Positions 4,574 to 16,252 of a DNA stretch of 64,000 nucleotides are shown here, in pieces; positions within the stretch are counted from its first letter, which is position 1, and every line of letters begins with the position of its first letter. Origin of the DNA: an uncultured Spirochaetota bacterium (GTDB lineage Bacteria > Spirochaetota > Brachyspiria > Brachyspirales > Brachyspiraceae); assembly GCA_944390575.1 (NCBI GenBank), contig CALXQJ010000006.1:1-64000 (forward strand), read 5' to 3'. The position numbers and the translations under genes were made by a program. The notes below the pieces were generated by a model, which had not been told where the DNA came from, did no database searches, and saw only the letters and a program-made list of their open reading frames with translations.

Positions 4574-7054
4574 ATGAAAAAAATTGCAACAATTTCATTT
4601 TGTATAGTTATTATTGTTTTATTTACTATATTTTTAATAGGTAATAAATATAGATATGGATATTTATCTGATTTAGAACTTGATATATATAAAACATTAG
4701 ATATTAATAATATAGAATATTATAAGTTTTCAGATTCAAATTTACTATTAGATGCTAATAATTGTATTTTAGATAAAGATTATATATTAACTAATAATAG
4801 TATAAAAAAATATGTTTATAATTTTAAAATTAATTATTATAGTAAAATATTTAGACATAGTGATATTTTAGGAGTATATTTAGATACTAATCAGCTTCTA
4901 CATAATTATTCTCATATTTTAGATGTTAATATGAATAACTCTGGAAGTCCTTATGGTTATTTTATATCTGATAAAATTTTATATGAAATATATAAAATTG
5001 ATAATGTTTTATATAAATTAAAAATAAAACAATATATTTATATTATTATATTTATACTATTTTTTATTTTATTTATTTTTAATTTTAGAATAAAAAAATT
5101 ATTTATTATATTATCTATTTTTTATATATGTGCTATATTATTATCTACTATTATCTTAAATAAAGATTCAAGTTTATATATTTCAGATTTTTATTTAAAT
5201 ACTTATAGAACTATGAAGCTTAATAATATAGACTATGTTAATAATTCAGACTATTCTAAAAATATTTATAAATATGTAATAAATAAAACTAATGAATATA
5301 CTAATCAATATGATTTTTTACTTTATATTTTAAATACTAATTTTGTTACTAATTATTCTTATTCTTTTTCACATAATAAAGATGTTTATAATTATTCATT
5401 ATTAAAGAAATTTTATTACTTTGATTTTAATGAATATGCAAAAGATAAACTCAATTTTATATGGAATTATTTTATAAGTGATTCAAAGATAAGTTTTAAT
5501 AATAAACTTATAGGTATAAAATCTTTTTATTATTTAGATAATATATTTTATTATATTGGATTTATTTTATTTTTAATATTGTTTATTATATTTATCAATA
5601 GATTTGTTCATAATGATATTTATTTTCTATATTTTACTGTTATTATAACTATGTTGATGTTTATTTTTCATTATTGGTTTTCTTATCCAGGAGATTATAG
5701 GTATGGTGATAGTATAATTATTATGGCAGGAGATTTTACAAATGCCAATCCTATTATAATATCTGTTTTTTTACATACATTATATAAACTATTTGGTGCT
5801 AATAGTTATTATATACTTTTACTTAATTTATTATTATGGTATTCTTCAATTATATTATTAGTTTATTCTTTATATAAAAAATATAATTCCAAATATACTA
5901 TTATTATTTTATTTGTTAGTTATATATCAAATATATTTTTTATGAATTTTAATCATCTAAAGGATTCAACATCTTCTTTATGGGTATTTTTTTCATATAG
6001 CTTATTTCTATTTTTAATAACCAAGGATAATAAAAATTGGGGTTTTATATTGTATTTTTTATTTTTTGTGTCTTTAATTATTGGAATGTTGTGGCGACAT
6101 AATATTATTGTTACTATATACCCAATATTTATATTAGTTGTATATTTAATACTAAATAATTATAGATTAAGTATATTTATGTACTCTATTTACTTTTTAT
6201 CATTAATGTTTATATTCTTTATATTATTAGTTTTATTACATATTTTTATTCCAAAACTATTTATTAAACATGATGAAAATGCTTTTAATAAAACTTATAA
6301 TATTAATCATTTATTTGCTTTACAAATAGCAGCTTGTGCAACTTATAGTAGTGATGATTCTATGATTCCTGATAACTGGTATATGCCAAATAAAACATTT
6401 GATGATGTTAAGAAAACATATAATTTGAACCCTCTTAATGCTGATAGATTTTCTATTTGGTGGTATAGTGATAGGGTGTTTAGAAGTGATTTGACGACTA
6501 AAGAAGTTATTGGCGTTTGGGTAAAATATATATTAAAATATCCCGGTGGTTATATTAAGCATATATTAAAATTTAATGATAAGTTTTTAGATTTAAGTAA
6601 TAGAAATAGCATAGTTTCACATTATAAAACAAAAATGCATTTTTTTGGTTATGATAGTTTTTTCCAAAATTTTGATGTTTTAGAGTTTACAGGTATTAGA
6701 GAAAGTATATATAATTTTTTATATTTGTTATTACCTAATATTAAAATAAAATATTTTGTATTAGTTTCTTTTTTGATATTTATATCATCATTTATATTAT
6801 TGTTTACTTATAAATATATAGATAAATCTTTAATTTTATTTTCATTATCTACTTCATTATCATCTTTATTTACATATTTGATTGTTATTTGTTTCACTCC
6901 TGTTATAGATTATAGATATATCTATCCTGTTGTTCCAATTAGTATAATATCTTTTATATCATTTATATTTTTATTGTATTATAGTATTCTTAATGATATA
7001 ATAAAAAATAAGATTATTATCTGTTTTAGTAAGATTTTAAAGGCTTGTTCTTGA
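4574..7054 (+). CDS. Tandem GT-C-like membrane protein C (two ectodomain modules)
   Basis: Third paralogue, starting 4 bases after B stops. Order: helix (7-22), canonical module 1 (24-150) with YYSKIFRHSD, VYLDTN and GSPYG, helix (153-173), helix (176-195), long divergent module 2 (196-318) rich in Asn and Tyr, helix (322-340), and the GT-C-like core. The core has YPG-x5-D (D379), LKD, LWRHN and RYIYP near the C-terminus. The conserved core motifs argue that it still works, while module 2 has drifted far from module 1. The final codons overlap the start of gene D (TTGA), so translation of D is probably coupled to C. Substrate unknown. Confidence 0.75.
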   Translation: MKKIATISFCIVIIVLFTIFLIGNKYRYGYLSDLELDIYKTLDINNIEYYKFSDSNLLLDANNCILDKDYILTNNSIKKYVYNFKINYYSKIFRHSDILGVYLDTNQLLHNYSHILDVNMNNSGSPYGYFISDKILYEIYKIDNVLYKLKIKQYIYIIIFILFFILFIFNFRIKKLFIILSIFYICAILLSTIILNKDSSLYISDFYLNTYRTMKLNNIDYVNNSDYSKNIYKYVINKTNEYTNQYDFLLYILNTNFVTNYSYSFSHNKDVYNYSLLKKFYYFDFNEYAKDKLNFIWNYFISDSKISFNNKLIGIKSFYYLDNIFYYIGFILFLILFIIFINRFVHNDIYFLYFTVIITMLMFIFHYWFSYPGDYRYGDSIIIMAGDFTNANPIIISVFLHTLYKLFGANSYYILLLNLLLWYSSIILLVYSLYKKYNSKYTIIILFVSYISNIFFMNFNHLKDSTSSLWVFFSYSLFLFLITKDNKNWGFILYFLFFVSLIIGMLWRHNIIVTIYPIFILVVYLILNNYRLSIFMYSIYFLSLMFIFFILLVLLHIFIPKLFIKHDENAFNKTYNINHLFALQIAACATYSSDDSMIPDNWYMPNKTFDDVKKTYNLNPLNADRFSIWWYSDRVFRSDLTTKEVIGVWVKYILKYPGGYIKHILKFNDKFLDLSNRNSIVSHYKTKMHFFGYDSFFQNFDVLEFTGIRESIYNFLYLLLPNIKIKYFVLVSFLIFISSFILLFTYKYIDKSLILFSLSTSLSSLFTYLIVICFTPVIDYRYIYPVVPISIISFISFIFLLYYSILNDIIKNKIIICFSKILKACS
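4829..4891 (+). repeat. Conserved 63-base stretch inside the canonical ectodomain modules
   Basis: This segment (encoding the YYSKIFRHSD...LDTN part of module C1) is closely matched in the same frame at 7300-7362 (module D1), 7867-7929 (D2) and more weakly at 2395-2457 (B1). The similarity extends to bases, not just residues. Such direct repeats within and between neighbouring genes could support module gain, loss or exchange by recombination. That role is inference; the similarity is seen directly. Confidence 0.7.
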
Positions 7055-10000
7055 AAAGAAAGTATATTTTTAGATTTTTTATTTCATTATATATTGTATT
7101 ATTTTTTTTATTAATATTATTATCTATTATTGGATATAATGATAGGCTAGGTTATGTATCAGATCTAAATTTAGACTATCATAATACTTTTATATATAAT
7201 GGTATATCAGATGAAAATATATTGACTAATACTTTAGATGTAAAAAATATTTTTTTATCAACTAATAAAACTATAACTAACTATATTTACAATTTTAGAA
7301 TTAATTATTATACAAAAGTATTCAGGCATAGTGATATATTTGGTGTATATTTAGATACTAATAGCCTTCTTTCTTCAGGTAGTTCTGTACTTGAAGTAAA
7401 TATGAATGAAAATGGAAGTCCTTTTGGTAGTATTATTTCTAGTATAGCTATTACAGATGATAAAATAGATAATATTATATATAAGTTAAAAATTAGAAAA
7501 ACTTTTATACTGTATATATTTATTAGCTTTTTTATATTTATTTTAATATTTTATATTAAGTATATATATTTATTTTTTAATTTTATATTAAAAAAATTAT
7601 ATTATTTTATATTTTTCAAGCGTTATTCTAATTGTAGAAAATATTTTATATATTTTTTGATTATTATAATTATTATGATATTTATTATATCATATTTAGG
7701 AAAAATTAAACGTATAGGGTATTTATCTGATTTTAGGCTTGATAATAACTTAACTTTACAGTTAAATAATATAACTAACATAAATGTATTAACAAATAGC
7801 TTAGATTTTAAAAGTTCATTTATAGAAACAAATGCTGCAATCAGTATGTATTCATATATTTTTAGAATTAATTATTATACTAAGATATTTAGACATAATG
7901 ATATTTTTGACGTCTATATTAATAGTAATAATATTATTTCTTCTAATGATTTTATTCTTGAATTAAATATGAATGAAAGTGGTAGTCCTTTTGGTACATT
8001 GGTATCAGATAGAGTTATTAAAGAAAATAAAGTAGATTCAGTTATATATTATTTAATGATAAAGCTAAAAATTAAGGTAATTTTAATATTACTTATTATA
8101 TTTACGTTATTATTTTCTGTATATTATATGTTATCAGAAAATATTATAACTATAAATAAAATTAATATAGATATAGATTTATACAAAATTACTATTCTTA
8201 TATTAAGAACTTTTATTATATTATCAATAATTTCTCTATTATTACTACTAACAATGAAAGTTTTGTTTATTAATAAAAGTTATGCAGGAGAATTATATAA
8301 TATATCATTAAATATAGAAGATACTTTATATTATAATAATGAGCTTGTAGATATATATTATGATAGGTATCATAGTATTAAAAATTTACATAATATATAT
8401 TATACTTGGAATAATATAGATACTAATATTTTTAAAGATTCATTTATATATACAAATAATAAAATAACTAATTATGTATATAATTTTTCATTATTAGATG
8501 ATAGTTTTTTATATAAATTAAATTTTTTGTATGATATTAATTTTAATATTAAAGATATATTAAGTAGCCATAATTATATCAGTGATATAAAACAATATTC
8601 TAAAGGAGATTCTTTTGGTACTTTTTATTCTACTAAGAATTTAAAAGAAATAAATAATATAGATAATATTATATATAGTATAAGTATAAAAGAAAGTGTT
8701 ATTTTATGTAATATAATAATAACTTTTGTATTATTATTATTTTATATTCTACTATTATGTTATGATTTTATTTTATCTGTAGTAAAGAAAATAAAAATTA
8801 ATTTTATAAATAAGTTATTAATTATTTTTATATTTGTATTATTATTTTCTTTGTTATTATTAAATATTATTTCTATAAAAGATAAAACAGGATATATAAC
8901 TGATTTTAATTTAATGATAAAAGATACAATAAAAGCAAATAATATTGAGGAAAATTTAGATAATATTTGGGTTTCTAGTAATATTTTTACTACTAATAAA
9001 CTTTTAACTTATAGTTTACAAAAAGAGTTTATATTTACCAATAAATTAATAACAAACTACTATTACTATTATAATTTGATTAGTAAAAATAAGTTGTTTA
9101 ATGATAATATATTTTATTATATAGATAATATAAAAGTATTAGATAACTTATCAATTAAGTTAAGATATAATTCAAATAATTTTGGATATTTGATATCTAC
9201 AAACAAGTTATCTTCTAATGATGTAATTAATAATATTTTATATAATGTCAAAGTAAAATCTGTATTTCATAATTTAGTTTATTTTATTATATTTATAACA
9301 ATAATCTTTATGATAATTTTTAATTATAGCAGTATATTAAAATATATTATCAATATAGATTCATATACTTATATTAAAATTATCATCATATTTTCTTCAG
9401 TCATAGCTTTATTTGAATTTTGGCTTTTATTTCCTGGATATTTTGCACATTATGATGAAGACTGGATGATGGCAAAAGCTGTATCTTTGGATTATGATAA
9501 TTGGTATCCAGTTGCTATACAAGTTTTTCTAACAACAATGTATCAACTTTTTGGCTATAAAACATTTTATATATTTTTATTAAATCTTATATGTTGGTAT
9601 ACAGGAATAACATTAGTTACAGTTGCATTATTTAAAAAATATAAAGATAAGAGGTTTATATTTTTAATATTTGTTTCTTGTTTGCCAGATATATTTTTTA
9701 ATAGTTTTTTACAATTAAAAGATATTTCAGCTACACTTTTAATATGGCTGTTATACTCCACATTATTTTATACTTCTATTGTGAAAGTTAATAAAAGATA
9801 TACTATTATAGTTAATATAATAGTATGTATTTTAGTCATATTATCAATAGTATGGCGTCATAATTTTATAGTTACGGTATATCCTATGTGTATTTTATTT
9901 ACTTATAGAATATTGAAACATTATAATAATAAAAAAAATTATTTTATATATTTTATTATTATAATGTTTTTATTTGCTATTTCTTTTATCTTTATTAATA

Positions 10001-10752
10001 AAGGAAATACTTATTTATGGATAAAAAATAATGAACAAATAGAATTCTCTAAAGATTCTACTACTCATCTATTTTTATTACAGATTATTGGTACAGCATC
10101 TAGAGCAAATGATGGAAGCTTAATTCCTGAAGATTGGTATTATAAAGGTAAGACTTTCGAAGATTTAAAATTATTATATTTTAATGCTTCAACTTCTGGA
10201 GATGTTTATAGACATCCCCCTGGATCTCCTATTAAATTTTATAAATTAAGAGATTTAAAAAAAATATGGATTCTATATATATTAAAACATCCTATTAGCT
10301 ATTTAGAACATGTTATTAATTTTACATCCTATGCATTTTTTGTTACTCCTTGGTTATACAATGAAGATGATATACAAAGAAAAACGACTCATTTTATAGG
10401 TGAGGGATTATTTGATAATAATGGTATAACTTTTTCTGAGTTAAGATATCATATATATTCATTTTTATTTAAGCATTTTAGTAGAATGTATATTAATATA
10501 TTCTTCTATATAATATTATCTTTTATTTTATTTATTATAAATATTTATTTATTAGTAAATAATAAAAATAAAATAACAGATATTCAAGTATTTTCTATAG
10601 TAACATCTATATCTTCACTTGTAACTATAATTATAGTTTCATTATTTGCACCAGCTATAATCTTTAGATACTTTTTTCCAATAATACCTATTAATATATT
10701 ATCATTAATTTCTTTATTAGTTTTTTATAAAAATAAAAAAAATATTACTTGA
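7051..10752 (+). CDS. Tandem GT-C-like membrane protein D (four ectodomain modules)
   Basis: Largest paralogue, about 1,233 residues. Four extracytoplasmic modules lie at roughly residues 28-152, 218-345, 408-552 and 612-742, each bracketed by membrane helices. Modules 1 and 2 are canonical (YYTKVFRHSD or YYTKIFRHND, then GSPFG). Modules 3 and 4 are divergent. The GT-C-like core follows, with FPG-x5-DED (acidic residues near 802-806), LKD, VWRHN and RYFFP. The start is placed at TTG 7051, which overlaps the upstream stop as TTGA: AAAGG at 7039-7043 is seven bases ahead of it but only one base ahead of the alternative TTG at 7045, and the paralogues also begin Met-Lys. The core is about the size of the others, so the extra length is all modules. 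Confidence 0.78.
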   Translation: MKRKYIFRFFISLYIVLFFLLILLSIIGYNDRLGYVSDLNLDYHNTFIYNGISDENILTNTLDVKNIFLSTNKTITNYIYNFRINYYTKVFRHSDIFGVYLDTNSLLSSGSSVLEVNMNENGSPFGSIISSIAITDDKIDNIIYKLKIRKTFILYIFISFFIFILIFYIKYIYLFFNFILKKLYYFIFFKRYSNCRKYFIYFLIIIIIMIFIISYLGKIKRIGYLSDFRLDNNLTLQLNNITNINVLTNSLDFKSSFIETNAAISMYSYIFRINYYTKIFRHNDIFDVYINSNNIISSNDFILELNMNESGSPFGTLVSDRVIKENKVDSVIYYLMIKLKIKVILILLIIFTLLFSVYYMLSENIITINKINIDIDLYKITILILRTFIILSIISLLLLLTMKVLFINKSYAGELYNISLNIEDTLYYNNELVDIYYDRYHSIKNLHNIYYTWNNIDTNIFKDSFIYTNNKITNYVYNFSLLDDSFLYKLNFLYDINFNIKDILSSHNYISDIKQYSKGDSFGTFYSTKNLKEINNIDNIIYSISIKESVILCNIIITFVLLLFYILLLCYDFILSVVKKIKINFINKLLIIFIFVLLFSLLLLNIISIKDKTGYITDFNLMIKDTIKANNIEENLDNIWVSSNIFTTNKLLTYSLQKEFIFTNKLITNYYYYYNLISKNKLFNDNIFYYIDNIKVLDNLSIKLRYNSNNFGYLISTNKLSSNDVINNILYNVKVKSVFHNLVYFIIFITIIFMIIFNYSSILKYIINIDSYTYIKIIIIFSSVIALFEFWLLFPGYFAHYDEDWMMAKAVSLDYDNWYPVAIQVFLTTMYQLFGYKTFYIFLLNLICWYTGITLVTVALFKKYKDKRFIFLIFVSCLPDIFFNSFLQLKDISATLLIWLLYSTLFYTSIVKVNKRYTIIVNIIVCILVILSIVWRHNFIVTVYPMCILFTYRILKHYNNKKNYFIYFIIIMFLFAISFIFINKGNTYLWIKNNEQIEFSKDSTTHLFLLQIIGTASRANDGSLIPEDWYYKGKTFEDLKLLYFNASTSGDVYRHPPGSPIKFYKLRDLKKIWILYILKHPISYLEHVINFTSYAFFVTPWLYNEDDIQRKTTHFIGEGLFDNNGITFSELRYHIYSFLFKHFSRMYINIFFYIILSFILFIINIYLLVNNKNKITDIQVFSIVTSISSLVTIIIVSLFAPAIIFRYFFPIIPINILSLISLLVFYKNKKNIT

Positions 10753-10792
10753 TATTTATATATTAATATTGTACTATAATAGAAGGTGATAT

Positions 10793-12121
10793 ATGTGTTT
10801 ACAAGCAACAAGCAACAAGCAACAAGCAACAAGCAACAAGCAACAAGCAACAAGCAACAAGCAACAAGCAACAAGCAACAAGCAACAATATTATATATTT
10901 TTTATTATAATATTCATTATACTGTTTTTAAATTTTGAATTTGGTATTTTTACTATTGCTAAAGAAAAAGCATTTAGAAGTCCAGATGTATGGTCTGCTA
11001 ATACTATTTTAGATGATTTATTTATAGAGGATATTTTAGGTGAGGATAAATCTTCATTTTTTATAGAAGTTCACCAAAATAATGGAGATAGAGATTTGAT
11101 TTTTGATACATCTAAGTTTAATAGAGAAGAAATAATCAATAATATTCATAGTGGAAAGTATTGGCTTTATAAATCAAGTCTTGGTTTTCAAACCCATATT
11201 TTACGACTTTTATTTAAGATCCTTAAAAAAGAAAATTATGATGCGTCTAAAATATTTAGACAGTTGGAATTTTTTGTTGCTATTATTAGTTCTTTTGTAT
11301 TAGCTATATTTTTTACTTTTTTATCTATAGAGTTTTCTATATTACCTGTAGATATAATGTTTATAGTTTCTTTATATACTAATATATGGATTACTATATT
11401 TGCTAAAGATATTTATTGGATGATTTGGTCTTTTTTTGTTCCATTTTTAATATCATCATTTTTTATCTATAGGTATGATTTTGAAAAAAATAATAAATTA
11501 TTTTTTATATTATTTACATTAACAGTTGCTCTTATACTTTCTATGGGATATGAATTTATATATACTTTTTTTATATCATCTACTTTGCCATTATTTTATT
11601 TTTCTATATCTAGAGAATATTCGTTAAAAAAGTTCTTTAAATATTTTATGATTATATCATCTCTTTGTTTTTTAGCATTGTTTATTGTATTATCTATTCA
11701 AGTTGTTTTACTAGGTAGTTTTGAAGTAATATTAGATAGACTGTATACTAGAACTATAAATAATACATATGATGATGGTGGGATCATTAATCTTTCTACT
11801 TTTAGTGTATTAAGGACATATTTGTTTTGGAACTATTATTCATATCCTTATATTTATTCTTTATATGTTTTATTTTTTGTTGTTTTATTACAATTTATAT
11901 CTTACAAGTTAAAAATTAACTATATAGGTTTTTCTTTAGATAATAAGAAATATTTAGCTTTATTTATTTGTTCTATTTTATCATTTATAGGTTCTATATC
12001 TAATTTAATGATACTAAAACAACATGCATATGTGCATGTACATATTGACTTTTTAATCTTTTGGATACCAACTTTATTTTTAGTTTATCTTATCTTATTA
12101 TTTAAGATTATAAAAAGTTAA
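10793..12121 (+). CDS. Polytopic membrane protein behind a 7-bp repeat; likely phase variable
   Basis: Begins Met-Cys-Leu and then reads four copies of the heptapeptide QATSNKQ from a 12-unit heptanucleotide array. A helix follows (33-51), then a large probably extracytoplasmic loop (about 52-155) and some eight more helices. The large first loop and a late His-rich stretch (HAYVHVHID) recall GT-C-like transferases, but I do not recognise the family. ATG at 10793 follows a strong AGAAGGTGAT ribosome site. A GTG at 10795 opens a second frame. With the present copy number the ATG frame is open. Shifting the frame brings stops at 10908 or 10936, so slippage would switch the gene off. It lies between the GT-C array and a GT2 gene, which points to glycan work. 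Confidence 0.75.
   Translation: MCLQATSNKQQATSNKQQATSNKQQATSNKQQYYIFFIIIFIILFLNFEFGIFTIAKEKAFRSPDVWSANTILDDLFIEDILGEDKSSFFIEVHQNNGDRDLIFDTSKFNREEIINNIHSGKYWLYKSSLGFQTHILRLLFKILKKENYDASKIFRQLEFFVAIISSFVLAIFFTFLSIEFSILPVDIMFIVSLYTNIWITIFAKDIYWMIWSFFVPFLISSFFIYRYDFEKNNKLFFILFTLTVALILSMGYEFIYTFFISSTLPLFYFSISREYSLKKFFKYFMIISSLCFLALFIVLSIQVVLLGSFEVILDRLYTRTINNTYDDGGIINLSTFSVLRTYLFWNYYSYPYIYSLYVLFFVVLLQFISYKLKINYIGFSLDNKKYLALFICSILSFIGSISNLMILKQHAYVHVHIDFLIFWIPTLFLVYLILLFKIIKS
10801..10888 (+). repeat. Heptanucleotide tandem repeat, 12 units of ACAAGCA plus 4 bases
   Basis: Twelve perfect copies of ACAAGCA (84 bases) and a partial ACAA sit from the third codon of the following gene. Seven is not a multiple of three, so every gain or loss of a unit shifts the frame unless three units change together. 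All three frames of the array are free of stops and read the same cyclic heptapeptide. This is the classic layout of a slippage-switched contingency locus. Confidence 0.95.
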
Positions 12122-12201: not shown

Positions 12202-12993
12202 ATGAATAATCAAAATATACAAATACCTATTTATACAAAACATATATTTTTTAATAAGAGAAATAAATATGTATTACTTATTCCTGTTATTAATGAAGGA
12301 GATAGATTTATTTCTCAAATGAATAAAATGAAAGATAATGGTATATTTGATATTTGTGATGTTTATATTTGTGATGGTGGTAGTACTGATAATTCTACTA
12401 ATTTAGAAGTTATAAAAAGTTATGGCTGTAAGGCATTATTAATAAATACAAGTGATATAAAAGGTCAGGGGGTACAACTTAAACAGGGATTTTATGAAGC
12501 TATGAAAGAAGGCTATGAAGGTGCTATAATGGCTGATGGCAATGATAAAGATGATATTCATAATAGTCTTAAGCGTTTTTTAGATAAATTAGATGAAGGT
12601 TATGATGTTGTTCAAGCTACAAGATTTTCTCTTGGAGGATATCATGAAAATACTCCATTGCTTAGAGTAATAGGTATTAGACTTATTGCGTCTCCTTTAT
12701 TAAGTTTTACTTCTGGTGTCAAGTATGATGATGTTTGTAACGGTTATAAGGGTTTTTCAAGAAGATATATTATGGATAATAGGTTAGGTTGGTTCACCGA
12801 CTTTTTTACTAAGTATGAATATTGTTATTATCCTTTAGTACATGCTAAGAAATTAGGTTATAGAGTAGTTCAAGTACCAACTTCTCGTGTTTATCCTAAA
12901 AATGAAGTTCCTTCTAAAATAAAAGGCTTCAGTCCTAATTTTAAATTATTAAAAGCTATAATTTCTTTAGCATTTAGTAAAACTAAAAAATAA
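12202..12993 (+). CDS. GT2 glycosyltransferase, polyprenyl-phosphate sugar synthase-like
   Basis: Soluble GT-A fold family 2 transferase of 263 residues. Visible motifs are IPVINEGD near residue 27 (nucleotide-sugar entry), DGGSTDNS (58-64) and MADGNDKDD (acidic metal site around D112). The protein has no C-terminal helices. Family 2 proteins of this size and pattern include DPM1-type enzymes that put a sugar on undecaprenyl or dolichyl phosphate. Placed directly after five polytopic membrane proteins of GT-C character, it is the natural supplier of their lipid-linked donor; this is inference. ATG at 12202 follows AAGGTGA at 12191. The sugar cannot be told from sequence. Confidence 0.8.
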   Translation: MNNQNIQIPIYTKHIFFNKRNKYVLLIPVINEGDRFISQMNKMKDNGIFDICDVYICDGGSTDNSTNLEVIKSYGCKALLINTSDIKGQGVQLKQGFYEAMKEGYEGAIMADGNDKDDIHNSLKRFLDKLDEGYDVVQATRFSLGGYHENTPLLRVIGIRLIASPLLSFTSGVKYDDVCNGYKGFSRRYIMDNRLGWFTDFFTKYEYCYYPLVHAKKLGYRVVQVPTSRVYPKNEVPSKIKGFSPNFKLLKAIISLAFSKTKK

Positions 12994-14503: not shown

Positions 14504-16252
14504 TTATCTAAAGAATTTTTTGTCTAAGTATTCTTTAGATATTCTAAGTACAAATGGTCTTCCATGTGGACAATTTGTAAGAATATTTTCTTCTTCTAAA
14601 AGATCTATTAATTTTTGCATATCTGAAATAGAAAGTATATCTCCAGCTTTTGGTGAATACTTACAAGATATAGTACTACAAGTATGTTTGATAACTTTTT
14701 CTAAAGAGTTATTATCCTCTTTTTTTATATAAATATCCAATACATCTTTTATTATATTTTCTACTTTTGTGTTTTTAGGTATATATATTGGAATATCTTC
14801 TATTATTATTGAATTTTTAGAGTTTACTTCGAATTTTATACCTATATCCTCTATTTTATCTTTATAGCTATTTAATATATCTATTTCATAATCACGATAC
14901 TCAATTTCACAAGGTATTAAAAGTTTTTCATACTCTATTTTTTTGCTAATTAGTTTTTTATATATTCTCTCATAGTTTAATCTTTCATAAGCAGCATGTT
15001 GATCTATTATATACATTTCATTATTTTTTTCTGCAACTATATATGATGAAAAGACTTGCCCTATTGCTCTAACATATTCCCCAAACTCATTATTTTTTTG
15101 ATTTACTGTATTATTATTAGTAGTATTTTCTATATTGTTTTGAAAATCATATTTCTCTATAGTATTATTTATTTTTTCTACTTCTGTATTATTAATTTGA
15201 AATGTAGGAGTAATATCCTTGTCTAAGTCAACTTCTATATTAACACTATCAAATGTATTATTAGAATTAATATTTTTATATATTAAATTATATATAATCC
15301 CTGCAATATCTCTTTCATTTTTTATTCTAACTTCTTTTTTACTAGGATGTACATTAACATCTACTTTATCAGTATTTATATTTATATATATAAAGAAAAA
15401 AGGATAGCGTTCTTTTGGTATAGAGTTTGAGTATGCATTTTTTATTGCGTATGATAATACTCTATTTTCTATAGGTCTATTATTTAAAAATATAAAATTA
15501 TTTTTTCTCATTGATTGACTTATTTTTGAGTTTGAAAAAAGTCCGTATATTTTTAAATCATTTTTTTCAAAATCTAACTCTATTAAATTTTGAAAAACAT
15601 TGTCATCATTAATATAATCTTCTATTCTATTTTTTATACTATCTGTTTTTAAATATGTTTCTACTATTTTATTATTATTTTTTAATTTCATAGTAATATT
15701 AGGATTTACTAATGCTTCTGTATCAAATACTTCTTTTATAAGAAAAAATTCTCTAGATGTATTTTTTAAGAATTTATATCTTGCAGGTATATTAAAGAAT
15801 AAATTTTTAGCAATAATCTTAGTTCCAGAAGATATTGGGTACGGTTTATGTTCTATAATATTTCCACCTTCTACTACTATTTTGCCTCCATTTTCTTCAT
15901 CTATACTTTTAGATATAATTTCTAAATGAGTAACATCCGATATAGAAGCAAGAGCCTCACCTCTAAATCCAAGAGTATATATAAAATCTAAATCTTCAAT
16001 AGAATGTATCTTACTCGTAGCATGATGTGTAACAGCAAGTGGAAGTTCCTCAAACTTTATACCACTTCCATTATCTTCTACAATCATAGTTCTAACCCCA
16101 GCTTCCTCAACTTCAACTTCAATAGAATCCGCTCCAGAGTCTATAGCATTTTCTAATAGTTCTTTAAGCATAGAAGCAGGACGCTCTATGACTTCTCCAG
16201 CTGCTATACGATTAGCAACAGATTGTGGTAGTTTTAGTATTCTTTTATTCAA
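14504..16252 (-). CDS. mutL: DNA mismatch repair protein MutL, endonuclease type
   Basis: Couples mismatch recognition by MutS to strand incision. The N-terminal GHKL ATPase has ENAIDSGAD, VEDNGSG, HATSKI and GFRGEAL in the usual order. After a low-complexity Asn-rich linker (about 340-390) the C-terminal domain carries DQHAAYERLNYE (about 417-428), the DQHA-x2-E-x4-E metal motif of endonuclease MutL, plus SCKYSPKAGD and the terminal CPHGRP. This fits a species that lacks MutH. Length of 582 is normal. It sits 17 bases behind a CheY-like gene and is probably in one transcript with it. Confidence 0.95.
   Translation of the reverse strand: MNKRILKLPQSVANRIAAGEVIERPASMLKELLENAIDSGADSIEVEVEEAGVRTMIVEDNGSGIKFEELPLAVTHHATSKIHSIEDLDFIYTLGFRGEALASISDVTHLEIISKSIDEENGGKIVVEGGNIIEHKPYPISSGTKIIAKNLFFNIPARYKFLKNTSREFFLIKEVFDTEALVNPNITMKLKNNNKIVETYLKTDSIKNRIEDYINDDNVFQNLIELDFEKNDLKIYGLFSNSKISQSMRKNNFIFLNNRPIENRVLSYAIKNAYSNSIPKERYPFFFIYININTDKVDVNVHPSKKEVRIKNERDIAGIIYNLIYKNINSNNTFDSVNIEVDLDKDITPTFQINNTEVEKINNTIEKYDFQNNIENTTNNNTVNQKNNEFGEYVRAIGQVFSSYIVAEKNNEMYIIDQHAAYERLNYERIYKKLISKKIEYEKLLIPCEIEYRDYEIDILNSYKDKIEDIGIKFEVNSKNSIIIEDIPIYIPKNTKVENIIKDVLDIYIKKEDNNSLEKVIKHTCSTISCKYSPKAGDILSISDMQKLIDLLEEENILTNCPHGRPFVLRISKEYLDKKFFR

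Follow-up and report, generated by a model that had tools for sequence, protein, structure and literature searches.

We conclude that the heptanucleotide array near the start of a 442-aa membrane protein gene in the window, the whole 64,000-nt stretch of DNA analysed here, is very probably a slipped-strand switch of that protein, ON in this assembly and matched by many similar loci elsewhere in Brachyspira. If replication added or removed one or two ACAAGCA units, the frame would shift and the protein would end after about 40 to 50 residues, while steps of three units would restore the protein, its tail lengthened or shortened by seven residues. That slippage changes the frame and truncates a protein of this build follows from the sequence itself. 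The initial annotation had read the locus as phase variable, and this reading is supported by the frames and their stops, the arrays anchored behind ATG codons across the genus, the mixture of open and closed genes, the copy-number differences between orthologues, a homologue that lacks the array, and a second array in the same genome that is probably fused to a gene for a glycosyltransferase family 2 (GT2)-like enzyme. We infer that the window array changes in length within the strain.

A tandem-repeat scan (TRF) of the 64 kb found a single strong array, (ACAAGCA)12.57 at 10801..10888 on the + strand (period 7, 12.6 copies in the scan, 100% matches, score 176, with the second-best array at 104), whereas the chance expectation for such a run in 64 kb at 24.7% G+C is about 1e-36. 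The twelve perfect units that had been described as starting in codon 3 are there both in the sequence and in the TRF output; the gene begins ATG TGT TT followed by (ACAAGCA)12 ACAA, which puts the onset inside codon 3, 8 nt after the A of the ATG (10793), and the length at precisely 12 whole units plus 4 nt. In the present frame the ORF (10793..12121, +; from the ORF list) is open throughout. The first off frame reaches a stop at 10908..10910 (+), 19 nt past the array end, and the second at 10936..10938 (+), 47 nt past it, exactly where the initial annotation had placed them. Direct reading also agrees with its claims that the unit contains no stop in any of the three frames and that three units amount to seven codons, or one heptapeptide, so that the downstream stops alone decide the outcome of a frame change. 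There is no plausible start 3' of the array, since the next in-frame codons, TTG 11096 (residue 102) and ATG 11357 (residue 189), would cost the protein its first membrane helix and a large part of the loop behind it. Upstream, a Shine-Dalgarno-like AGAAGG (10781..10786, +) lies 6 nt before the ATG, and TATAAT (10775..10780, +) is a possible -10 element, over which a promoter scan favours TTGATA 10749 with TACTAT 10772-10777; promoter-like hits numbered 4 against 1.7 expected in shuffles, a weak excess. An Rfam search of the window returned no match.

The 410-aa body of the window protein has no Pfam, NCBIfam or PDB match, and no orthologue of it was found in 25 other Brachyspira genomes (none at E <= 1). 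A single-sequence structure model was of low confidence (pLDDT 49.5). The phylum contains one clear distant homologue, from another spirochaete family (G077), which aligns with residues 5-399 of the body at 26% identity (E 7e-20). It carries no array and consists of a short N-terminal tail followed by the same first membrane helix, an anatomy which indicates that the window array occupies the tail in front of that helix. The residues encoded by the array form a Q/A/T/S/N/K tail at this position, where a three-unit change in length should be harmless.

The next gene on the same strand (12202..12993, +) encodes a GT2 enzyme by database match, and reading showed similar N-termini in L194 and L213, downstream of genes under array control. 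Directly upstream lie two large multi-span membrane ORFs of 826 and 1235 aa (4574..10752, +) that share the motif '...GYLSDL/GYVSDL...FRINYY.K.FRHSDI...GSPFG'; elsewhere in Brachyspira, genes with this motif are under arrays of heptamers or tetramers. The suggestion that the locus belongs to a glycosylation cluster is supported in part, by the GT2 enzyme that follows the array gene; for the two ORFs that precede it a Pfam search found no family. The window gene encodes a multi-span membrane protein adjoining a GT2 gene, and its product, the body of which has no family match of its own, probably helps to build or decorate a cell-envelope glycan, a role that we infer; the switch might then alter a surface sugar.

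Judging from the sequences compared, the phenomenon is larger than the initial annotation described and spans the genus Brachyspira. The pattern ATG-N(0-14)-(ACANNCA)4 matches 20 of 26 Brachyspira genomes while a reversed control pattern has zero matches, and (ARCA)n tetramers stand behind an ATG in 16 of the 26. Units of the ACANNCA form include ACAAGCA, ACAGTCA, ACAATCA, ACAAACA, ACACACA, ACAACCA and ACACTCA, and such arrays recur in many independent assemblies, Mb-sized contigs included. This census is based on patterns (ACANNCA, ARCA and CAACANNN) and misses other units, such as the CTCAT array in L256. When the ATG was not required, 23 arrays were found among the matches listed, five of which end at a contig edge or in masked sequence; of the 18 with a known 5' side, an open ATG lies no further than 14 nt away in 17, against a background of 0.193 (P about 1e-11), and about 39 nt upstream in the last (G006), by direct reading. 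The onset lies no more than 5 nt from the ATG in 35 of 49 arrays, a list partly chosen by pattern.

Two architectures occur in Brachyspira: in type A, that of the window locus, the array is part of the gene itself, and in type B it lies in a short leader ORF. Among the direct fusions, the window locus, L197 and L220 are open and L194 and L215 are closed. Type A genes include a closed membrane protein in G016 that we call GT-C-like from a reading of its topology and not from a database match, an Eco57I-type restriction-modification (R-M) enzyme that is open in G010 and closed in G005, outer-membrane-protein-like genes in G024 and G013, and a DNA methylase with an Mrr domain in G011 (L224, G011:C61). 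The genome of the window itself has a second heptamer array, (ACAGTCA) in at least 17.7 copies, at positions 1-124 of L204 (G000:C16) and at the end of L231 (G000:C15); it stands behind an ATG on C16 and, if the two contigs join as we suppose, is fused on the C15 side to a GT2-like glycosyltransferase. The gene next to it on C16 was read as a putative DNA adenine methylase. The same contig carries an octamer array, (AACAAATC)12.9 at G000:C16:6906-7008 (L204), just before a glycosyltransferase-like gene and without an ATG in front. A CAACANNN array was found in no other genome of the genus.

These fused loci bear on whether the array could be an ordinary low-complexity N-terminal tail that is kept in frame and changes in steps of three, with the peptide alone being of importance. 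Such a tail would fit the window ORF as it now stands, in frame and with a plausible soluble segment before the membrane helix, but all 88 nt of the window array are pure nucleotide repeat with zero synonymous changes, comparable fused genes are out of frame in sister species (L194, L215), and most of the arrays examined lie in short leaders whose peptide is outside the main protein, all of which makes this explanation very unlikely.

Differences in copy number are apparent between several related loci, although these comparisons are between species or paralogues and not within a strain; plasmid records gave no Brachyspira relatives for a within-species comparison. The R-M enzyme has 6 units and an open 1025-aa body in G010 (L197), while its orthologue in G005 (L215) has 8 units and is closed, in flanks that are 96.2% identical over 79 nt upstream and 97.7% identical over 399 nt downstream. 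An MFS leader array measures 201 nt in G019 against 105 nt in G023, with flanks 95.6% and 99.75% identical. In G009, neighbouring paralogues that are 98% identical 3' of the array carry (ACAATCA)32 and (ACAGTCA)11.9, which suggests that whole arrays are rewritten quickly.

In type B loci, the array starts in codon 2, or close to it, of a short leader ORF that reaches the main start codon or overruns it. The main gene follows about 60 to 170 nt later with its own GGAG-like site. Of 34 such loci, 29 have at least one frame that is open as far as the main start, against 9.9 expected from dinucleotide shuffles, and two frames are open in 15 of 34 against 1.0 expected; many of the loci are homologous, and P values from these counts overstate independence. 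Leader stops typically fall 1, 8 or 11 nt past the main start, and several of the tetramer loci examined likewise have stops 1 and 8 nt beyond it. In the family in which a YidC domain is joined to a phosphodiesterase-like domain, all 13 leaders, two array-free ones included, keep open one frame whose stop falls 8 or 11 nt beyond the main start. Substitutions in this conserved frame (0.199, 0.212 and 0.252 at codon positions 1, 2 and 3) tend toward a coding leader, but the trend is weak and not independent. The MFS gene of G020 is likewise array-free and has an intact 50-codon leader at the same place. Retention of the leader in homologues without arrays suggests that it predates the arrays.

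Our results lead us to lean towards a model in which, in most of the phase-variable Brachyspira genes examined, the array lies in codon 2 of a leader ORF whose frame decides ribosome access to the main start, so that slippage sets translational coupling instead of truncation, and in which arrays invaded an existing leader switch. Translation of the leader would either allow ribosomes to arrive at the main start codon and reinitiate there, or keep Rho off the transcript, and a leader frame with an early stop would presumably be the OFF state. A leader that overruns the main start could also be inhibitory, the direction of the effect being our supposition, and the frequent opening of two of the three frames could produce graded states instead of a plain on/off switch.

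An effect on transcription or on the mRNA, through promoter spacing or mRNA stability, would not depend on the frame at all. There is a precedent in the H. influenzae hmw genes, which have heptamers in their promoters (PMC2651432), and the octamer array of the window genome has no ATG before it. The heptamer arrays, on the contrary, lie behind an ATG and not before it, and their units are stop-free, and we regard an action independent of the frame as very unlikely for the window array. It is extremely unlikely that the array is a neutral tandem repeat, passively carried, or an artefact of assembly, even though CAACANN heptamers occur in many unrelated genomes among the matches listed, those of cyanobacteria included, where the STRRs are non-coding heptamer repeats, because the arrays are strongly placed behind ATGs, leader frames are open to the main start far beyond expectation, and similar arrays recur in many independent assemblies.

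A slippage switch of the kind that we propose for the window has its nearest known counterpart in neuO of the E. coli K1 prophage CUS-3, the phase-variable polysialic acid O-acetyltransferase gene with the poly-psi VNTR (PMC3046976). There, 2 to 93 heptamer copies begin two nt behind the ATG, copy numbers divisible by three are ON, each three units add a heptapeptide, and activity rises with the length of the tail (PMC3046976). Both loci have a heptamer array in the first codons, frame switching and steps of three that stay in frame; in the window gene we find, as in neuO, a pure and stop-free array with a unit length not divisible by three in the 5' coding part, an early end in the off frames and a full protein in the on frame. 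The product of neuO acts on a surface glycan, as the window protein may also do. In contrast to the window locus, neuO has the unit AAGACTC and the heptad RLKTQDS and is a prophage-borne gene for a soluble acetyltransferase, whereas the window array targets an orphan membrane protein and belongs to an array family that spans a genus.

In H. influenzae, short tetra- and heptanucleotide repeats (SSRs) switch genes for surface glycans, receptors and R-M systems, and one unit, AACAACC, is common to these SSRs and Brachyspira; the available portion of that description lists mostly tetramers, with some heptamers in promoters, and contains no arrangement with a short leader ORF like that of type B (PMC2651432). 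Phasevarions, which depend on phase-variable DNA methyltransferases such as modA (PMC4525171), are resembled by the Brachyspira arrays in the DNA methylase with an Mrr domain (L224) and in the Eco57I-type R-M enzyme (L197, L215). The Brachyspira units differ in being heptamers, and the window gene is not a DNA methyltransferase gene and does not belong to this class, whereas the sister loci L224 and L197/L215 are candidate phasevarions or switchable defence systems. Our literature search found no report of repeat-driven phase variation in Brachyspira, an absence that is weak because subscription papers are mostly outside its coverage, and Brachyspira, leaders and translational coupling are all absent from a review of phase variation (PMC11868660). 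The window locus belongs to the known neuO-like class, and the genus-wide set, above all its leader architecture, is the newer part.

Domain matches among the array-controlled genes include YidC/Oxa1 (PF02096) joined to the phosphodiesterase-like domain (a weak match), an MFS transporter, Eco57I/N6_Mtase, N6_N4_Mtase with Mrr_cat, an FkbM methyltransferase and DUF1796. Envelope, glycan, transport and restriction-modification genes are the usual phase-variable classes in other bacteria, and Brachyspira includes the agents of swine dysentery and intestinal spirochaetosis. If our reading is correct, one short-repeat signature would predict which envelope, transport and DNA-methylation genes vary within strains of this hard-to-manipulate genus, with a bearing on typing, the choice of vaccine antigens and phage sensitivity.

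CAACANN heptamers near ATGs also occur in other phyla among the matches listed from public contigs, so the shape of the unit alone is not specific to Brachyspira. CAACAGC and AACAACC heptamers, for example, stand right after ATGs in an Endomicrobium MAG (L124, 3024-3091 and 4632-4664) and a Treponema MAG (L142, 4334-4445), and similar heptamer switches may be widespread beyond Brachyspira.

Within the genus, a pentamer array, (CTCAT)n, lies at about 1330-1410 of L256, shortly after an ATG and upstream of a YidC-phosphodiesterase gene; its genome, G021, has no ACANNCA or ARCA matches, and other unit types exist that these patterns miss. Further pentamers, (ACCAG)n and (ACAGG)n, were seen near array-controlled genes (L194 4415-4472, L213 4452-4524, L227 7965-8001, L214 3297-3340); on the strand examined they do not seem to follow an ATG. 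Contigs often end inside arrays (G017 C76/C95 and C127/C114, G011 C143/C61, G022 C17/C26, G005 C68/C91, the pairing of ends being a guess), as is expected where arrays are hard to assemble or variable in length. Finally, a mutL-like gene (by reading) is located at 14504-16252 (-) in the window, about 4 kb from the array, and mismatch repair status may influence the slippage of tetramer loci.
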